Source: Micavibrio sp.
GTDB lineage: Bacteria; Pseudomonadota; Alphaproteobacteria; Micavibrionales; Micavibrionaceae
Length of the DNA stretch: 40,103 bases
Assembly: GCA_028290825.1 (NCBI GenBank)
Contig: JAQGJB010000094.1
Span: 1 to 40,103 of the forward strand
Direction: 5' to 3'
A model generated the notes under the pieces. The model was not told the DNA's origin. It made no database searches and was given only the letters and a program-made list of their open reading frames with translations. Positions 27,729 to 37,682 of the stretch are shown one piece after another (the first letter of the stretch is position 1; each line of letters opens with the position of its first letter). The translations under genes and the position numbers were made by a program.

Positions 27729-28754
27729 TTATCCGTTATAGGCGTAAATGATTTTTCTTGAGGCCGGAATAATGATGATAATGCCTATGCGGCCATAGGC
27801 GTAGTAATTTTTAGGATGAACAATTGCGCTATTAGCTATTTTTAGAAACTGTGAATCTATGCTGATACCGAATCCATAAGCATTCAAGTAGTTTTCTATT
27901 GATGGCGTCTTTTTTGAATAATTTTCCTCCCCGTCTTTCATTGACATGTAATCAACCCAATTTCTTGTTACATCTATAGGGGTTTCATGCCACGTTTCGT
28001 AATGACCCCTCCATTCATGTCCATCACGAGCATTTGAATATAGGTTCTGTAAGTAAGAAATTCCTTCTGTTTCAATTTTTTTTGCAATTTTTTCGGGTAA
28101 TTCATAAACAATAAAGCCAGTTTCATTGCCGCCCGGACCAAAGCCCCAAGAATCTTCATTTCTGTATATAATTTTATAGACGCCAAACTCATTCGGAATA
28201 AAAGATAGACGGAATTTATATTCCCAGAGTTTAAATCCTCCAATAATAGTGACGATAATAATTATCAGTGGAGTAAGCATAAGAAGTGTTTTTTTTCTGA
28301 CCTCCTTCTCATAGGTTACATCTTTCGCGTGCCACACTTTATTACGACATAATAAATACATTAAAACCCCCGTAATCGACCCGGCAATTGCGCCTAGTGG
28401 AATACAGTTTTGAAGATTGATCATATGGGCTAACGCCCAGCCATAACAAGCGGAGCAAATAGCCCCACAGATAATCCAAATGGCAGGATTTTTTTTATAA
28501 CGGTCAAAGATGTAAAAACTAGAAGGGCAACCAAATAGTAATATACCCGGCAAAAATAGAAGGTATCCAGCTGTTAAGACCATAAACAGAATGAGCAGGT
28601 CATTTTGATGGCCAATCATTCGATAATGATCGCGAATATACAATCCTGCTATCAGCAATAAGCATGACAAATAAGATGATAAAATCAGTCTTAAAGTCAG
28701 GCCAATTTTACCAATCGTTTTTGGATTTGATACTGGTATTTGTTCTATTCCCAC
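27729..28754 (-). CDS. AT-rich orphan membrane protein
   Basis: 341-residue protein with no family I recognise. The N-terminal half has five or so hydrophobic helices (about residues 20-40, 52-75, 92-112, 117-135 and 154-174). The C-terminal half is a soluble domain with many aromatics ([30 protein letters not shown]) and ends in a hydrophobic strand ([19 protein letters not shown]). The best start is a GTG that overlaps the last 10 bases of guaA. The gene is plainly more AT-rich than anything around it, with AT-ending codons, which suggests recent acquisition or relaxed composition. No transposase or repeat flanks it. Confidence 0.6.
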
Positions 28755-30352
28755 TCAATCGTCCCGGGCGGTTTCGAGGTGATGTCGTAGACCACGCGAC
28801 CAATACCGCGCACTTCGTTGATAATCCGCGTTGCAACACGTCCCAGAAATTCATGGCTGAATGGATAAGTATCGGCGGTCATGCCATCGGTTGAGGTGAC
28901 GGCGCGGAGGGCACAGACGCTGTCGTAGCTTCTGGCATCACCCATGACGCCGACGCTCTGGACGGGGAGGAGGACGGCGAAGGCTTGCCAGATGGCGTCA
29001 TAGAGGCCGGCGTTGCGAATTTCCTCGAGGTAGATTTGGTCGGCGTGGCGGAGGATTTTGAGTTTGTCTGCCGTGATTGCACCCGGAATGCGGATGGCGA
29101 GGCCGGGGCCGGGGAAGGGGTGGCGTTTGACGAAGTCGGGGTGCAGGCCAAGCTCGATGCCGAGGGCGCGGACTTCGTCTTTGAACAGTTCGCGTAAAGG
29201 TTCGATCAGTTTTAAATTCATGCGGTCGGGCAGGCCGCCGACATTGTGGTGGGATTTGATGGTGACGCTGGGGCCGCCAGTGAAGGAGACGGATTCGATG
29301 ACGTCGGGGTAGAGGGTGCCTTGCGCCAGGAACTCGACGCTCTTGCTGTCGCCGCTGACACGGCCCGCGACTTCTTCGAACACTTCGATGAATAATGCGC
29401 CGATGGCTTTGCGTTTTATTTCGGGGTCGGTGACGCCTGTCAGGGCGCCGAGGAAGAGTTCGCTCGCGTCTTCGTGGATCAGGGGAATGTTGTAATGTTC
29501 GCGGAAAAGCTCGACGACCTGGTCGCTTTCGCCGGTGCGCATCAGGCCGGTATCGACATAGATGCAGGTGAGCTGGTCGCCGATGGCTTCGTGCAGCAGA
29601 ACGGCGGTGACGGAGGAGTCGACGCCGCCGGAGAGGCCGCAGATGACCTTGGCGCTGCCGACCTGTTTGCGGATTTTGGCGATGGCTTCGTCCTTGAACG
29701 CGGCCATGGTCCAGTCGCCGTGGCAGCCGCAGATGTCGCGCGTGAAGTTTTTGAGGAGGGCAGCACCGTGCGGGGTGTGCACGACTTCCGGGTGGAACTG
29801 CACGCCGAAGAATTTGCGTTCGTCATTGGCGATGAAAGCGAAGGGTGCGCCTTCCGACGTGCCGACGACGCGGAAGCCTTCGGGCAGTTGCGTGACGCGG
29901 TCGCCGTGGCTCATCCACACTTGCTCATGTGCGCCGGTGTTCCACAGGCCTTCGGTGATCGGGCTTTTTTCCTGAATGTCGACATAGGCTCGGCCGAATT
30001 CGCGGGAGTGGCCGGATTCAACCTTGCCGCCGAGTTGCTCCACCATGGTCTGCTGGCCGTAGCAGATGCCGAAGACCGGGACATTCATTTCGAAAACGGA
30101 TTGCGGGGCGCGGGGGGATTCAAATTCGGTAACGCTGGCCGGGCCGCCGGAAAGAATGATGCCTTTCGGGTTATAGGCCTTGATGCGTTCGTCGCTGGCG
30201 GCGTTGAAGGGCCAGATTTCGCAGTAGGTGCCGCTTTCACGGACGCGGCGGGCGATCAGCTGCGTGACCTGCGAGCCGAAATCGAGGATCAGGATGCGGT
30301 CATGCCGGGCCAGTGTGGAAATAGCTTGAGAGCCGGGGGAAGATGCCTGCAT
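28745..30352 (-). CDS. guaA: GMP synthase (glutamine-hydrolysing)
   Basis: Converts XMP to GMP using glutamine and ATP. The N-terminal class I glutaminase has Cys97 in [10 protein letters not shown] and His187/Glu189 in [11 protein letters not shown]. The ATP-pyrophosphatase loop is [12 protein letters not shown] (SGGVDSS at 241-247). The C-terminal dimerisation domain ends [12 protein letters not shown], typical of GuaA. The 535 residues include a short N-terminal extension of about 15 residues. It is divergent from gpt, with which it forms a functional purine pair. Confidence 0.97.
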
Positions 30353-30387
30353 AAATGACCTGCTTTCAGAAAATTTATAATCGGCAA

Positions 30388-30416
30388 TTTATAGCATTGT
30401 TTGCGGGCTTTGACAG
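30388..30416 (-). promoter_or_regulatory. Candidate guaA promoter
   Basis: On the minus strand CTGTCA (30411-30416), a 17-base spacer and TATAAA (30388-30393) lie 36 bases upstream of the guaA start. The remaining part of the 127-base guaA-gpt gap carries an AT-rich patch (AATATTATAAAG at 30446-30456) that may serve gpt. No purine riboswitch-like three-way junction is recognisable. Confidence 0.45.
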
Positions 30417-30479
30417 CCGAGAAAGACCTTCCCGCAGGTTGAAAAATATTATAAAGCTGGAAGGGAAAGGGCGGCCGGC

Positions 30480-30971
30480 ATGAGCGATTATAAAAACGAG
30501 AAATATGTCACCTGGGACGATATTCAGGGCCAGTGCCGCGATCTCGCCCGCCGTCTTCTGGAGATGAACTGCCCGCACCTTAAAATTCTTGCTATTACAC
30601 GTGGCGGTTTGTTCCCGGCCGGTATTTTGGCGCGCGAGCTGGATATCCGTGAGGTCGAGAGCGTCTGCATCGATACCTATCAGATGCAGGAGCGTGGCGA
30701 GCCGGTGATGCTGAAGCCTCCAGCCCCGGAATTTTGTGACGGTGTGATTGTTGTTGATGATCTAGCCGATACCGGTGCGACGCTGCAGATGCTGCGCCGT
30801 CATTTGAAGAATGCGCTGATCGTTACCGTTTATACCAAGCCGCAGGGCGAAGACCTCGTCGATCTTTATCATGAGAAGGTGGCGCAGGATACGTGGGTCC
30901 GGTTCCCGTGGGATACGGATCACGGACGCGCCTATGTGAAACCGCTGGCGCTTGAAGAAGATTTGAAATGA
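30480..30971 (+). CDS. gpt: Xanthine-guanine phosphoribosyltransferase
   Basis: Salvages xanthine and guanine to XMP and GMP with PRPP. The 163-residue protein aligns by eye with E. coli Gpt: KYVTWDDIQGQCRDLARRL, ITRGGLFPAGILARELDIR, the PRPP loop VIVVDDLADTGAT (residues 90-102), the flexible-loop Tyr region CIDTYQ and QDTWVRFPWD. The end overlaps the deaminase gene (ATGA), so the two are translationally coupled. Confidence 0.93.
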   Translation: MSDYKNEKYVTWDDIQGQCRDLARRLLEMNCPHLKILAITRGGLFPAGILARELDIREVESVCIDTYQMQERGEPVMLKPPAPEFCDGVIVVDDLADTGATLQMLRRHLKNALIVTVYTKPQGEDLVDLYHEKVAQDTWVRFPWDTDHGRAYVKPLALEEDLK

Positions 30972-31942
30972 CCGTACTCGATCTTGCAATCCTGCCTAAA
31001 CTGCTTGATGCCTGCGATGCGAAGGCGGTCGAGAATGTGCGTGCCGATCGTGGCGGGCCGTTTGCGGCGTCGATCCATGTTCATAACATGCTGACCGGCG
31101 ATCTGCAGACGATTGTGGAGCCTGTCGGGAACGCCGTGATCGAAACGGGGCTTGCCAGTGCACACGCGGAAGACCGCGCGGTGCAGCCGGAGAATACGGC
31201 GAAGCTGCGCGCGGCGGTGGCGGCGATTGGGTTAGAGAATGCGCATATCTATGTGATTTCAAGCGCGGAGAGTTGCCCGGCTTGTCATGCCAAGCTGGAA
31301 ATTCTGGCGCGGCAGCTGGTGCATGAGAAATTGATCCTGCCGCAGCATTTTACGGTCGTGTTCGGTGCCAGCTATGAAGACAGCAAGGCCGTGGCCGGGT
31401 TTGACGATGATAAATACCATCATGATTTCCAGGTCAAGCCCGGGACAGGCCTGATCAGGCAGAGCTTTGCGAAGTTCCTTGACCTGCCGGAAACGCTACG
31501 CACCCGTATCAACGATGCAACAGGCCCTGCGGCGTGGATCATGACCAAGGACCGCGTTCTGGTCGGGGTTGGCGATGCGCCGGAGGTGAATGTCATTCAT
31601 GTGGCATCAAGGGTCCAGCAGCGCGTACGGATTGAAAGCCCGTGGAATTTGCGCCGGGCGACGCTTTATACGTTTACGCACGAGATCGGGCCGATGGCTT
31701 ATGCGGAATGCCAGTGGGCGAATATTTCGGAGTGGGTCAGTGTCGAACATGAATCGGCACAGATTTTTGCAACACGTGAGGCCCCGGATATCGGCAATAG
31801 CACGTTGTTCAAAATTATCGGCACACGTCCCTATACCAATCCGGACAGTGCCATGATCATCCATCACCTGATCCCGTTTGCAAATCTGGGGCAGCATGAA
31901 TGGGCCGCGAAAGCGGATAAAAAGCAATATAACGGGGCTTAG
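30968..31942 (+). CDS. Two-domain cytidine-deaminase-fold protein (probable purine/nucleobase deaminase)
   Basis: 324-residue protein. Domain 1 (about 20-125) has a complete zinc deaminase site: His66-Ala-Glu68 in SAHAEDRAVQ and Cys103/Cys106 in AESCPACHAKL. Domain 2 (about 185-265) keeps the fold pattern but not the chemistry. LYTFTHEIGPMAYAECQWANI aligns by eye with the EPCPMCxxAixWA motif, yet both zinc cysteines are replaced (Gly241 and Ala244). The arrangement is an active plus a degenerate copy, as in E. coli-type cytidine deaminase, though the motifs are closer to the guanine/tRNA-adenosine group. Overlap with gpt and proximity to guaA suggest a substrate such as guanine (giving xanthine for Gpt). 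That is inference. Confidence 0.7.
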   Translation: MTVLDLAILPKLLDACDAKAVENVRADRGGPFAASIHVHNMLTGDLQTIVEPVGNAVIETGLASAHAEDRAVQPENTAKLRAAVAAIGLENAHIYVISSAESCPACHAKLEILARQLVHEKLILPQHFTVVFGASYEDSKAVAGFDDDKYHHDFQVKPGTGLIRQSFAKFLDLPETLRTRINDATGPAAWIMTKDRVLVGVGDAPEVNVIHVASRVQQRVRIESPWNLRRATLYTFTHEIGPMAYAECQWANISEWVSVEHESAQIFATREAPDIGNSTLFKIIGTRPYTNPDSAMIIHHLIPFANLGQHEWAAKADKKQYNGA

Positions 31943-31945
31943 GTC

Positions 31946-33301
31946 CTAGTCTTCCTGATCGGCGAAGGGATTGATTTCGCCTTCAACTGTTGGGTCGGCA
32001 GCACGTTGCAGGACCGCAGCAAAGAAACCATCCGTATTGTTCCGCAGCGGCGAGAGGCGCATATAAGGCGCACCAAGGTCCGCACCGGGAAGGATCTCAC
32101 TGACTGGCACAACCGAATAGTTCGGATGGTTCTTCAGGAATTTTTCGACCTGTTCCTCATTCTCACGCGGGAGAAGGGAGCATGTGGCATAGACCAGACG
32201 TCCGCCCGGTTTCACGACGTTGGCGACGCGGTCGATGATATCGGCCTGGGTTTCGATCAGTTTTTCCAGGCTTGGGCCGAACTGGCGCCAGCGTGTGTCG
32301 GGGTTGCGGCGCCAGGTTCCGGTACCGGAGCATGGAACGTCCAGCAGAACAACATCAAACGTGCCCTTCTGGCGTTTCAGCCATTTGCGGGATTTTTCAT
32401 CTTCCAGCGGGCGGACTTCGATAATGTCGTGGGCGTGGGCGCGGCGGAAGCGTGGACGGGCTTTTTCGAGGCGCGAGGCTTCGATGTCCATCGCGACGAT
32501 GCGGCCTTTTGGTTTTTTGTCGAGCGCCATGGCGTTGACGATGGCGAGGGTTTTGCCACCGGCCCCGGCGCAGTAATCGAGAACCTGAGCGCCCGGTTTG
32601 GCGCCGCACATATAAGCGATCAACTGGGATCCTTCATCCTGAATCTCGATATGGCCTTTGGTAAAGGCCTTGGTGTCGGAGAGATAGGCGCGGGTGCGGG
32701 AACGCAGGCCCCAGGGTGAATAGGGTGTCGGGTCTGTCTCGACATTGTCTTTGGCGAGGGAGGCCATGGCTTCCTCTCGTGTCAGAGCCAGGAAGTTGAC
32801 GCGCAGATCCAGCGGTGCCGGGTCAAGCATCGCGGCCATTTCCGCGACGAATTTATCCTTATAGAGGGCGCGGAGTTCGGTTTCAAATTCCGGCGGGCAT
32901 TCGACCTTGACCGCATCCGGCATCGCGTTGGTGTCGAGAGTTTTGCCCTCCAGCGATTTCGCCAGTTCTGTTTCGGCTTCGCTCAACGGTTCCGGGTTGA
33001 ATTTCTCGCCGTCGAAATGTTCACGCAGTTTATCGAGAGTGAAATTTTCGACCAGCATCAGATGAGCGATCAGGCGCATGCGCGGGGTATCTGCCGCTTC
33101 CAGTTTCTCCAGCCACCACCCCAGACGCGCCTTTGTGCGCACCATGGCATAGACCCGCTCCGCGATATCGGCGCGGTCTTTCGACCCGATATAACGGCGG
33201 TAACGCATGTAATCGCCAACCGTCCCATCCATCGGGATGCGGCTTTCGGCGGTTTTTGTCTGGATTTCAAGGACGGCGTTTAATCGGGCTGCTTGTCTCA
33301 T
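31946..33301 (-). CDS. rsmB: RsmB/NOP2-type 23S/16S rRNA m5C methyltransferase
   Basis: SAM-dependent RNA cytosine-C5 methyltransferase, 451 residues from the ATG at 33299-33301; a longer frame upstream lacks family similarity. The N-terminal NusB-like helical region begins MRQAARLNAVLEI. The SAM motif I is VLDYCAGAGGKTLAI, motif IV is LLDVPCSGTGTWRRNPD (Cys324) and motif VI is VYATCSLLPRENEEQV with the catalytic Cys374. RsmB is the best guess; other m5C methyltransferases of the family cannot be excluded. It is convergent with the deaminase gene, 3 bases apart. Confidence 0.85.
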   Translation of the reverse strand: MRQAARLNAVLEIQTKTAESRIPMDGTVGDYMRYRRYIGSKDRADIAERVYAMVRTKARLGWWLEKLEAADTPRMRLIAHLMLVENFTLDKLREHFDGEKFNPEPLSEAETELAKSLEGKTLDTNAMPDAVKVECPPEFETELRALYKDKFVAEMAAMLDPAPLDLRVNFLALTREEAMASLAKDNVETDPTPYSPWGLRSRTRAYLSDTKAFTKGHIEIQDEGSQLIAYMCGAKPGAQVLDYCAGAGGKTLAIVNAMALDKKPKGRIVAMDIEASRLEKARPRFRRAHAHDIIEVRPLEDEKSRKWLKRQKGTFDVVLLDVPCSGTGTWRRNPDTRWRQFGPSLEKLIETQADIIDRVANVVKPGGRLVYATCSLLPRENEEQVEKFLKNHPNYSVVPVSEILPGADLGAPYMRLSPLRNNTDGFFAAVLQRAADPTVEGEINPFADQED

Positions 33302-33335
33302 GGCGCTTCTTGTAAACGAATGGCTGCAATATCGC

Positions 33336-33374
33336 AACAAAAACCCCCACCTGGCATTGCCGGGCGGGGGTTTT
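33336..33374 (-). terminator. Intrinsic terminator of the Thr/Val-rich protein gene
   Basis: AAAACCCCC (33340-33348) pairs with GGGGGTTTT (33366-33374). On the minus strand the stem is followed by a T-rich tract (TTTTTGTTG), 18 bases after the stop of the gene at 33392-34078. It also separates that gene from the methyltransferase gene. Confidence 0.75.
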
Positions 33375-33391
33375 ACGGGACTGATTAAGAC

Positions 33392-34078
33392 TTATTCTTC
33401 AGGGGCATGGCCGGTAGCAGGGATTGCTGCGGCTGGCGCGCTCGTCGGCACGGCAACAACCGGTGAGGCTGTGGTGGTCACGGTTGTCGATGTCGTGGTT
33501 GCCGGGGTGCCGGTGACGTTGGTGTCACGGATCAGGACGCCGCCGCGCACTTTCAGGACTTTACCGTCCGGCGTGGCAATTTCACCGTCTGGGGCCGGGG
33601 CGGTGGTGCCGTCGGCATTCACGACCAGAGCCTGAATACCACGGACCTGAATGGCGGTGCCGCTTTTCATTGTGTAGCTCTCGACTGTGGCTTCCGGTTC
33701 CGGTGTTGCGTCTTCTTCACCGGTATTGGTGACGGTGCCGACAGGGGAAATTGTTGTCTCGGACGATTTTGTGGTGGTCACGGTGCCGCCCGGCGGAACG
33801 ACGACGGCGCCGGTCGGGGTTGCAACAACGGCAGCGGTCGGGGTGCTGACGGTTGTTGTGGTTGTGCCGGTGACCGGGTTGATGACGCTGGTGGCGGTGG
33901 CCACAGGCGGAACGGCGGAGGGTGTCACAACGGTTTCGGTAGATTTCGTCGTGGTGGCTGTCGGGGTCGACACCGTGGTGCTGGTTTTGGAATGTAGCAC
34001 GGTTTCACCGGCCAGGGCGGCTGTGGAAACGGCCAGGATGGCGCTTACGGCCAAAGTCGCAGGGATCAGTTTGTTCAT
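33392..34078 (-). CDS. Exported Thr/Val-rich low-complexity protein
   Basis: 228 residues with a clean signal peptide (LIPATLAVSAILAVSTAALA). The mature protein is dominated by Thr, Val, Ala and Pro (TTTTTVSTPTAAVVATPTGAVVVPPGG), mucin-like in composition. A short more ordered segment lies at about 130-185 (SGTAIQVRGIQALVVNADG, GEIATPDGKVLKVRGGVLI), where two beta-hairpin-like DG repeats resemble small DUF-type envelope domains. Only a signal peptide and no anchor is seen, so it is periplasmic or surface-associated. It is flanked by its own terminator. Confidence 0.75.
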   Translation of the reverse strand: MNKLIPATLAVSAILAVSTAALAGETVLHSKTSTTVSTPTATTTKSTETVVTPSAVPPVATATSVINPVTGTTTTTVSTPTAAVVATPTGAVVVPPGGTVTTTKSSETTISPVGTVTNTGEEDATPEPEATVESYTMKSGTAIQVRGIQALVVNADGTTAPAPDGEIATPDGKVLKVRGGVLIRDTNVTGTPATTTSTTVTTTASPVVAVPTSAPAAAIPATGHAPEE

Positions 34079-34170
34079 TATCTTGCTCCGGGTTTGTTAT
34101 TCAGGTTTTTTAAATTGCGGTGAACAGGGTGACAGTATTGCGGCAATCTTAAAAGCCCCTGATGGCAAAA

Positions 34171-34710
34171 TCATGTCAGGAGCAGTTTCGACGTATCGCG
34201 CCAGCCATAGCAGACATCGGTCAAAGTACGGCTGCCGATCTCGACCTGTTTCTTGCCGCAACGGTCGCCGCCTAAAGCTTTGTAAAATGCATTTCCGCGC
34301 GTATTCTTTTCCAGAATCCAAAGGCACAGGGATCTGTGCTTCTTTTCCTTCAACCGGGCCGCCGCAAGCGAGAGCAATTGCCGCCCCAGACCCTGCCGCC
34401 AGTAAGCGGGCAGAATGTAAATAGCGAGGATTTCCGCAGTATAGAGCGGACGCACCGGGGACATGCCGGGCGGTGCCGTCATTAATTTATTGAAGGCAAC
34501 AAAGCCTGCGGGTTTGCCGTCCGTGTCTCGGGCGATGTAGGCCTCGGTTCCGGCGGCCAGCCATTCGCGCCATTGCTGCGCCCGTTTGGCTGGGTCGAGG
34601 TCATCAAGAAAGGATTGTTCGACCAGCCCGCCATAACTCGCGCGCCAGCCTTCGACATGGATGTGGCCGAGATCGTTTGCATCATCAGGTGTGGCGAGAT
34701 CGGTTTTCAT
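34171..34710 (-). CDS. GNAT family acetyltransferase
   Basis: 179-residue acetyltransferase. The N-terminal IHVEGWRASYGGLVEQSFLDDL is typical of one large GNAT subgroup. The acetyl-CoA site is ILPAYWRQGLGRQLL (R/QxxGxG), and the C-terminal LWILEKNTRGNAFYKALGG is the usual beta5-alpha4 region. Acceptor substrate unknown. It is upstream of the Thr/Val-rich gene on the same strand but 92 bases away. Confidence 0.88.
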   Translation of the reverse strand: MKTDLATPDDANDLGHIHVEGWRASYGGLVEQSFLDDLDPAKRAQQWREWLAAGTEAYIARDTDGKPAGFVAFNKLMTAPPGMSPVRPLYTAEILAIYILPAYWRQGLGRQLLSLAAARLKEKKHRSLCLWILEKNTRGNAFYKALGGDRCGKKQVEIGSRTLTDVCYGWRDTSKLLLT

Positions 34711-34784
34711 GCTGCAAGGCTACTTGAGTTTGCCGCGCGCGGCAATTACCCTCAAACCTTCAACTTATGGCGAAGGATTTAATG

Positions 34785-34973
34785 ATGAAAGATAATAAAA
34801 CCCTGCTTCTGGTGATTGCCCTGTTGCTGGCCGGAATTTTCGGGGTGATGGTTTACCGGGAAACGCACAAGACCCCAGCTGAAAAAATTCAGGAAGGTTT
34901 AAGCGATGCCGCCAGCGGTGTCGGCGATGCGGTCCAGAAAATGGGCGCGGACATCAAAAGAAACTCCCACTGA
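34785..34973 (+). CDS. Small single-pass membrane protein
   Basis: 62-residue protein with one membrane helix near the N-terminus (KTLLLVIALLLAGIFGVMVY) and an amphipathic C-terminal helix (EGLSDAASGVGDAVQKMGAD). Two adjacent ATG codons (34782 and 34785) follow AAGGA; the second gives the better spacing. Similar small proteins are common in Alphaproteobacteria with unknown role. Confidence 0.65.
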   Translation: MKDNKTLLLVIALLLAGIFGVMVYRETHKTPAEKIQEGLSDAASGVGDAVQKMGADIKRNSH

Positions 34974-34992
34974 ATTCTGTTGTGATAAAAGA

Positions 34993-35020
34993 AAAGCCCG
35001 GAGGCGATCCGGGCTTTTTT
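34993..35020. terminator. Bidirectional intrinsic terminator
   Basis: AAAGCCCGGA (34993-35002) and TCCGGGCTTT (35008-35017) form a 10-bp stem with a 5-base loop. T-runs follow on the plus strand, and on the minus strand the stem is followed by a T-rich stretch (TTTTCTTTT). It lies between the convergent small membrane protein gene and guaB and can serve both. Confidence 0.85.
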
Positions 35021-35037
35021 CTGTTTCCGTCCCTGTC

Positions 35038-36549
<1,512 letters not shown>

Positions 36550-36557
36550 TCATACGC

Positions 36558-36585
36558 ACTATACGCGCCGCAGCAATGATGGCAA
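36558..36585 (-). promoter_or_regulatory. Probable guaB promoter
   Basis: On the minus strand TTGCCA (36580-36585), a 16-base spacer and TATAGT (36558-36563) lie 27 bases upstream of the guaB start, entirely within the rlmE-guaB gap. Confidence 0.55.
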
Positions 36586-36605
36586 GAGGGCTTGGGAAAT
36601 AAAGG

Positions 36606-37313
36606 TTATTCCGTCGGTTCGCGGCGGAATCCTTTGGCCACCACGTATTGTTCCGCGGAACCCTGACGGCTGGCGGGCGGTTTGATGTGCTTGACGGTTT
36701 TGAAATCTTTTTTCATCTGGGCCAGCAATGTGCCCTGCGTTCCGCCCTGGAATACTTTGGCGACGAAGGTGCCGTCCTGTTTCAGAACCTGAATGGCGAA
36801 TTCATAGGCGGCCTCAACCAGATTCATAATGCGGATGTGGTCGGTTTTCTGGTGACCCATCGTGTTCGGGGCCATATCGGTCAGGACAATATCGACAGGT
36901 CCGTCCAGGGCGTTGATCAGGACCTCCGGTGCATCCTCGTCCATGAAATCCATCTGCAGCAAAGTCACGCCGGCAATCGGTTCCATGGGCAGGATATCAA
37001 GGCCGACAACACGCGCCTTGCGCTCCAGCGCCACCTGGCACCAGCCACCAGGTGCAGCGCCGAGATCGAGGACCAGCATGCCCGGTTTGATCAGATTGAG
37101 CTGGTCGTCTATTTCAAGAAGTTTAAATGCTGCGCGAGAGCGATAGCCAAGACGTCCGGCTTCTGCAACATAAGGGTCGTTCAGTTGCCGTTGAAGCCAC
37201 GCGCGCGAGGATGGCTTCATTTCCTTGTCCTTGACGTGCACCATGCGCTGATTACCGCGCGGTGACTTGCGTCCGGAGGATTTTGGCGGATCGGTCGGTT
37301 TTTTCGGCGGCAT
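36606..37313 (-). CDS. rlmE: 23S rRNA 2'-O-ribose U2552 methyltransferase
   Basis: FtsJ-type SAM methyltransferase of the ribosomal A-loop. The K-D-K-E tetrad is complete: Lys64 (RAAFKLLEID), Asp146 (LTDMAPNTMG), Lys186 (VAKVFQGG) and Glu221 (GSAEQYVV). The SAM motif is LDLGAAPGGWCQVAL. The 235 residues include a basic N-terminal extension (KKPTDPPKSSGRKSPRGNQR) likely to bind rRNA. It follows the small membrane protein gene at 37326-37682 by 12 bases and probably shares its transcript. Confidence 0.95.
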   Translation of the reverse strand: MPPKKPTDPPKSSGRKSPRGNQRMVHVKDKEMKPSSRAWLQRQLNDPYVAEAGRLGYRSRAAFKLLEIDDQLNLIKPGMLVLDLGAAPGGWCQVALERKARVVGLDILPMEPIAGVTLLQMDFMDEDAPEVLINALDGPVDIVLTDMAPNTMGHQKTDHIRIMNLVEAAYEFAIQVLKQDGTFVAKVFQGGTQGTLLAQMKKDFKTVKHIKPPASRQGSAEQYVVAKGFRREPTE

Positions 37314-37325
37314 CGTCGTTGGTCC

Positions 37326-37682
37326 TTACACCAGCATCAGCAGCATCGAGCCGCAGAACGCGAAGAGATAAATGGTAATAATCACGGCCAGAAACACCAT
37401 GGCGGAGGTTTTAGGCGAAAGCTTCGCCAAAATCAGGAACAGGCCGGCCAGCACTCCATACACGATCAAGCCGCGTTCATAAAGCCCAAGCCCTGGCATC
37501 AGGCCCATAATTCCGTTCGGATGGCCGATTCCTTCCATCAATTCGATCTGGGTGCGCAAAGTGAGGATACAGGCGATAATGAAGGCCAGCGTCATCAGGC
37601 GCCGTCCGCGCTGGACCATAAACAGGCTGATCGGCAGCCACAGGCAATCAATCCATTGATAGTAAAGGTCGGGGTCGGGCAT
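37326..37682 (-). CDS. Small multi-pass membrane protein of unknown function
   Basis: 118 residues from the ATG at 37680-37682; a TTG 42 bases further upstream would give 132. Three or four hydrophobic segments are visible (LMTLAFIIACILTL, LIVYGVLAGLFLILA, SAMVFLAVIITIYLFAF) and a conserved-looking N-terminus (PDPDLYYQWIDCLWLP). I do not recognise a family. It is immediately upstream of rlmE. Confidence 0.65.
   Translation of the reverse strand: MPDPDLYYQWIDCLWLPISLFMVQRGRRLMTLAFIIACILTLRTQIELMEGIGHPNGIMGLMPGLGLYERGLIVYGVLAGLFLILAKLSPKTSAMVFLAVIITIYLFAFCGSMLLMLV

Follow-up and report, generated by a model that had tools for sequence, protein, structure and literature searches.

A 324-aa protein encoded in the window (the whole stretch of 40,103 nucleotides analysed, from a Micavibrio genome of 2.46 Mb) is best explained as a single-chain guanine deaminase that retains a pseudo-partner and feeds gpt2 and GuaA, a reading to which we give, taken as a whole, a probability of about 0.6. 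Its architecture and ancestry, i.e. two fused domains of the GuaD type, are assigned with high confidence, and zinc ligands are found only in the first of them (Table 1). This protein belongs to a family for which neither Pfam nor NCBIfam has a model, and it probably provides those alphaproteobacteria of the Micavibrio group that have small genomes and lack HGPRT with a route from guanine to GMP.

Table 1. Features of the deaminase locus (positions in the window; residues of the deaminase)
Feature	Residues	Position	Strand	Basis or remark
guaA, GMP synthase, divergent partner		28745..30352	-	Pfam GATase and GMP_synt_C
gpt2, xanthine phosphoribosyltransferase (XPRT) paralogue		30480..30971	+	163 aa; NF006613 172.8 bits, cut-off 138
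Two-domain GuaD-type deaminase, fused live and dead domains		30968..31942	+	ORF, 324 aa
Domain 1, catalytic deaminase domain	1-160	30968..31447	+	hhalign to GuaD
GGPFAA, GuaD/GSDA-type substrate loop	29-34	31052..31069	+	G29, G30, P31, F32 and A34 invariant
N55, equivalent of Asn42 of B. subtilis GuaD	55	31130..31132	+	11 residues ahead of the zinc His in both
H66-A67-E68, zinc His and catalytic Glu	66-68	31163..31171	+	invariant in 20 sequences
E101-S-C103-P-A-C106, zinc cysteines	101-106	31268..31285	+	C103, C106 and S102 invariant
F145-D-D147; D147 equivalent of Asp114 of B. subtilis GuaD	145-147	31400..31408	+	F145 and D147 invariant; register from profile alignment
Domain 2 core, zinc-less pseudo-deaminase	165-295	31460..31852	+	hhalign to GuaD; PDB match of the model of domain 2 alone
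A204-P-E206, decayed HAE of domain 2	204-206	31577..31585	+	alignment to the HAE position
EIGPMA, decayed EPCPMC	239-244	31682..31699	+	G241 and P242 invariant in 20 aligned sequences
W250, equivalent of Trp92 of B. subtilis GuaD	250	31715..31717	+	invariant in domain 2
C-terminal helix and tail (W312, Y321-N-G323), proposed lid on domain 1	307-324	31886..31939	+	W312, Y321 and G323 invariant
guaB, IMP dehydrogenase, near but outside the operon		35038..36531	-	named from translation

Domain 1 keeps all of the catalytic and substrate residues that were tested (N55, H66, E68, C103, C106 and D147), which are the equivalents of Asn42, His53, Glu55, Cys83, Cys86 and Asp114 of B. subtilis GuaD; the equivalent of Tyr156 is Y321, near the end of the protein. 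The HAE and CPAC motifs that an earlier note on this DNA had read in the first half are thus present (residues 66-68 and, as part of ESCPAC, 101-106), and the canonical PCxxC is SCPxC throughout the fused family, with a Ser in place of the Pro. In hhalign comparisons, domain 1 matches GuaD with a probability of 96 (E 1.6e-9) against 0.05 for TadA, and a profile search of the PDB with the first half retrieves guanosine deaminase (2.6e-5) and B. subtilis GuaD (1.7e-3). The GuaD-type C-terminal tail that carries Tyr156 is missing after domain 1 and is found only after domain 2: the alignment of domain 1 to GuaD ends before this tail and that of domain 2 reaches the last residue of GuaD.

Domain 2 matches GuaD with a probability of 98 (E 1.3e-12), against 2 for TadA. 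When it was modelled alone with AlphaFold (pLDDT 82.7), the predicted structure retrieved B. subtilis GuaD at Foldseek ranks 1 and 2 (E 1.2e-3; VIA Z 8.6, rmsd 3.5 over 107 residues), so that a deaminase fold is predicted for this half too, and the main objection foreseen in the earlier note, a second half of some other fold, does not apply. The His and both Cys ligands of zinc have all been lost from it; the reading of an EPCPMC-like motif as EIGPMA, devoid of both cysteines, proposed in the earlier note, agrees with the alignment to B. subtilis GuaD (Gly241 and Ala244 at the cysteine positions), and motifs, homology and predicted structures agree on one live and one dead domain. GuaD is a homodimer of 156-residue subunits with two live sites, whereas here a second live zinc site is absent from the two fused units. 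Column-shuffled controls (60 per domain) scored at most 19, compared with GuaD scores of 52 for domain 1 and 72 for domain 2. No direct homology between the two domains could be detected by hhalign (probability 0.23), and an internal duplication is inferred from the GuaD matches of both. A TadA-type ancestry was ruled out by the TadA probabilities of the two domains given above, although GuaD and TadA do match each other.

The dead half keeps more than a simple tether would need (invariant G241, P242, W250 and E271), and some members even keep the catalytic Glu, which might indicate that domain 2 is mainly regulatory, its old active site binding a purine nucleotide or base and tuning domain 1 or gpt2. 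This seems improbable, as the old HAE position varies among members (APE, TPE, TAI) and the invariant tail can be explained without any ligand. Pairs of a live and a broken deaminase domain are already known. In the two-domain cytidine deaminase of the E. coli type, a single chain carries a zinc domain and, behind it, a degenerate copy without zinc that contributes to completing an active site; this enzyme differs from the present protein in that it belongs to the pyrimidine branch, still dimerizes and arose by an independent fusion. A live deaminase unit is likewise paired with a dead one in ADAT2/ADAT3 and in the two-domain APOBEC3 proteins, but these edit tRNA or DNA, the ADAT pair is made of two chains and the dead unit serves nucleic-acid binding. 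In the literature searched, no paper on a fused GuaD was found, and to that extent an independent case that arose in the GuaD branch from a domain swap is new.

The fused deaminases largely escape existing family models. Searches of Pfam, NCBIfam and, with a single sequence, the PDB gave no true match for the 324-aa protein, and neither fused unit is still recognized by Pfam, unlike GuaD; with PF00383 (dCMP_cyt_deam_1), the window protein had no match at the gathering cut-off, and three of nine homologues matched weakly (best E 0.0012). Twenty-two homologues beyond the window protein were aligned or placed in a tree, and conservation was counted in 20 aligned sequences. Thirty-four alignment columns are invariant among these 20, which include, in domain 1, D17, A20, G29-F32, A34, N55, V57, G61, A65-E68, S98, S99, S102, C103, C106, A114, L117, F128, A143, F145 and D147, and, in domain 2 and the tail, A213, W226, G241, P242, W250, E271, W312, Y321 and G323. 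The family is not due to chance, as shown by these columns and by GuaD scores that lie far over those of the shuffled controls. In domain 1, the zinc ligands and catalytic residues are not only invariant in the 20 aligned members but also present in two further families, including at loci without gpt or guaA; this makes it very improbable that the deaminase has no metabolic activity and serves Gpt or GuaA as a structural partner, as its tight linkage to gpt2 and guaA could otherwise suggest.

The role of the dead half may be sought in its C-terminus. In bacterial GuaD, the two subunits cover each other's active site with their tails, and the PDB title of the B. subtilis enzyme (1wkq, 1tiy) calls it the 'first domain-swapped structure in the cytidine deaminase'. 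According to the 2004 paper on this structure, Asp114 and Tyr156' reportedly serve base recognition. The fused deaminases and GuaD have in common the catalytic set, the GFDD motif and a W-x8-Y tail, in which W312 and Y321 are the equivalents of Trp147 and Tyr156 with the same spacing; the equivalents of the base-binding Asn42 and Asp114 (N55 and D147) are invariant in the 20 sequences. The full-length AlphaFold model, built from 20 sequences, has a mean pLDDT of 92.3 and a pTM of 0.91, with pLDDT values of 94, 96 and 74 for residues 291-300, 301-310 and 311-320. When domain 2 was modelled alone, the pLDDT of the same tail stretch fell to 56-64 (48 at the very end) and the strand 297-300 was lost. 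The best structural match of the full model in the PDB is the plant guanosine deaminase GSDA (7dbf, 7dc9), chain 7dc9_D being aligned over residues 4-322 of the model (Z 15.1, rmsd 2.8, 154 residues); domain 1 and the last helix thus resemble together a single subunit. Alignments to TadA, NE0047 and yeast cytosine deaminase likewise run from about residue 4 to residues 315-324 of the model and end near the C-terminus of the target, and the chain-swapped 1wkq_A aligns to residues 5-166 only. According to the model, the alignment ranges and the pLDDT values, the tail of domain 2 quite probably sits on domain 1, a swap that takes place between subunits in GuaD and is predicted to take place within one chain here. 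Since the tail is placed on domain 1 in the models, the most likely role of the dead half is that of a covalently attached pseudo-subunit supplying the lid. The earlier note had correctly described the dead-domain architecture and had not foreseen this likely reason for it, a swapped C-terminal lid.

The same tail bears on the nature of the substrate. Guanosine deaminase is structurally as close to the fused deaminase as guanine deaminase is, the best profile and structural matches in the PDB are the Arabidopsis guanosine deaminase and the residues conserved here are common to both activities; the protein might therefore deaminate guanosine like GSDA, yielding xanthosine from which a nucleosidase would then free xanthine for gpt2. 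This alternative appears unlikely. In GSDA, a homodimer of live subunits, Tyr185 is the terminal residue, re-caps the active site and employs its free carboxylate (PMC9739398). A C-terminal Tyr is also predicted at the active site of the fused deaminase, but Tyr321 is followed by at least two residues, whereas the corresponding Tyr is terminal in both GuaD and GSDA. Furthermore, the coupled XPRT works on free bases. The substrate of the fused deaminase is probably guanine, as suggested by homology and gene context.

Combined together, these data lead to the following model. Domain 1 would bind zinc through H66, C103 and C106 and would deaminate guanine to xanthine, E68 acting as the general base while N55 and D147 would hold the base. 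Domain 2, a second GuaD unit devoid of zinc ligands, would have been retained as a built-in partner: it would form an interface like that of the dimer and, with its C-terminal helix and tail (W312 to Y321), would cap the active site of domain 1, as Tyr156' does across the subunits of B. subtilis GuaD. Domain 1 would have lost its own tail, for which only the dead site would have had a use. Xanthine would then be converted to XMP by the coupled gpt2 product and XMP to GMP by GuaA. GuaD is a textbook case of a domain-swapped dimer, and the family would record what follows the fusion of such a dimer: all members seen have retained the tail that serves the live site and lack the one for the dead site, which makes the family a clean test case for the persistence of dead enzyme domains.

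The gene context gives this scheme its metabolic side. The ATGA at 30968-30971 holds both the stop of gpt2 and the start of the deaminase gene, so that the two are translationally coupled, and 127 bp separate gpt2 from the divergent guaA; downstream, rsmB is convergent, 3 bp from the deaminase gene. The overlap and the divergent guaA had both been described in the earlier note, whose figure of 3.7 kb for the distance of guaB past the deaminase end has to be corrected to 3.1 kb, where guaB starts. Orthologues of guaB are also found near the deaminase in three other genomes (G001-G003). At the gathering threshold, no Rfam element was detected in 28500-37500, and no promoter or terminator signal at the locus clearly exceeded the shuffled expectation. 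The gpt2 product matches E. coli-type XPRT and belongs by NF006613 to the Gpt/XPRT family (PDB 1a95), from which it differs by its paralogue clade and by an Arg at the position of Glu136. The linked XPRTs form a separate clade (support 100/99), apart from the second XPRT of the same genomes, and this clade occurs with at least three lineages of the deaminase tree. All members of the gpt2 clade have VRFPWD where E. coli Gpt has WIEQPWD, the other XPRT copies carrying mostly His or Tyr at this position. The change of Glu136 to Arg may shift the specificity toward xanthine.

The coupling is conserved without being universal. The XPRT gene neighbours the deaminase gene in the same orientation, upstream in the window and downstream at six other loci, and the ATGA overlap exists in both gene orders (gpt then deaminase in the window, deaminase then gpt in G027 and G082, loci L045 and L046), and guaA is adjacent to the deaminase or at most two genes away at 11 of 23 loci. 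The XPRT found close by at two distant loci (L053, L054) is on the opposite strand and belongs to the other clade. No XPRT exceeds the cut-off in six of the 19 carriers of the order (G011, G029, G035, G078, G085, G108), the only XPRT of two carriers from outside the order is unlinked, and three genomes (G006, G089, G110) have gpt2 but not the deaminase. No HGPRT over cut-off was found in any of the 16 carriers examined and only two of these 16 have xanthine dehydrogenase; where XPRT is present, xanthine therefore has an obvious use. The six carriers without XPRT imply that xanthine salvage cannot be the universal role of the family. The module proposed in the earlier note (guanine to xanthine to XMP to GMP) is thus supported in part: the coupling of XPRT and guaA is conserved and specific enough to favour it, but not in all carriers.

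Activity on another small heterocycle (cytosine, isocytosine, a pterin, damaged guanine or azaguanine), the XPRT link then reflecting general base salvage or detoxification, would fit the retention of the active site in carriers without XPRT and the variability of GuaD-like enzymes, complexes with ammeline, 5-azacytosine and 8-azaguanine being among the PDB matches. The equivalents of Asp114 and Tyr156, the base-recognition pair of GuaD, are invariant and the neighbours are guanine-branch genes, which makes this explanation a rather unlikely one. The route from guanine through xanthine and XMP to GMP is the best reading here, although it would be wasteful if gpt2 takes guanine directly, and its use for XMP salvage in this genome is slightly favoured. 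It is a more tentative proposal that a domain-swapped homodimer turned into a one-chain pseudo-heterodimer, whose dead unit serves only to bear the lid, and that this enzyme and an XPRT that co-evolved with it and is specific for xanthine (Glu136 to Arg) make up a dedicated guanine/xanthine/XMP route.

Profile searches found the fused deaminase in 19 of 142 genomes of the order, all in one family, a scan of genome contigs gave 19 deaminase loci and a class-wide sample added two further families. No match was found in phage and plasmid collections. Weaker profile matches in two other families of the order are ordinary canonical GuaD proteins. Canonical GuaD (E below 1e-40) is absent from all carriers of the order; its copies are mostly in other families, so that this mutual exclusion is not independent of phylogeny. 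The named homologue records come mostly from Micavibrio and other alphaproteobacterial metagenome-assembled genomes (MAGs), and two from Phycisphaerales MAGs (L056, L058), whose long-form deaminases are very near the alphaproteobacterial L055 in the tree, which may reflect transfer or misbinning. In relatives within the same order, two canonical GuaD domains (L040:1117-2016, L041:1030-1929) each have a receiver domain of the response-regulator type fused in front of them (PF00072 42 bits; PF00383 93 bits), and several other GuaD matches there are ORFs of about 300 aa. Some loci carry additional genes. In G093, guaA and the deaminase are separated by genes for a kinase of the PfkB type and for another PF00383 deaminase of a different kind (33 bits, motif HVE; L147:1351-3564), an arrangement that suggests a more extensive cluster for purine salvage; after the deaminase and gpt2 come genes of the MetF and MetE types (L147:5312-8503), and similar ones were seen by eye beside another deaminase (L048:9117-13249). 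In G097, a tandem pair of gpt2-type genes is found behind the deaminase (L060:2709-3778), the second of which has a long branch and scores just under the XPRT cut-off.
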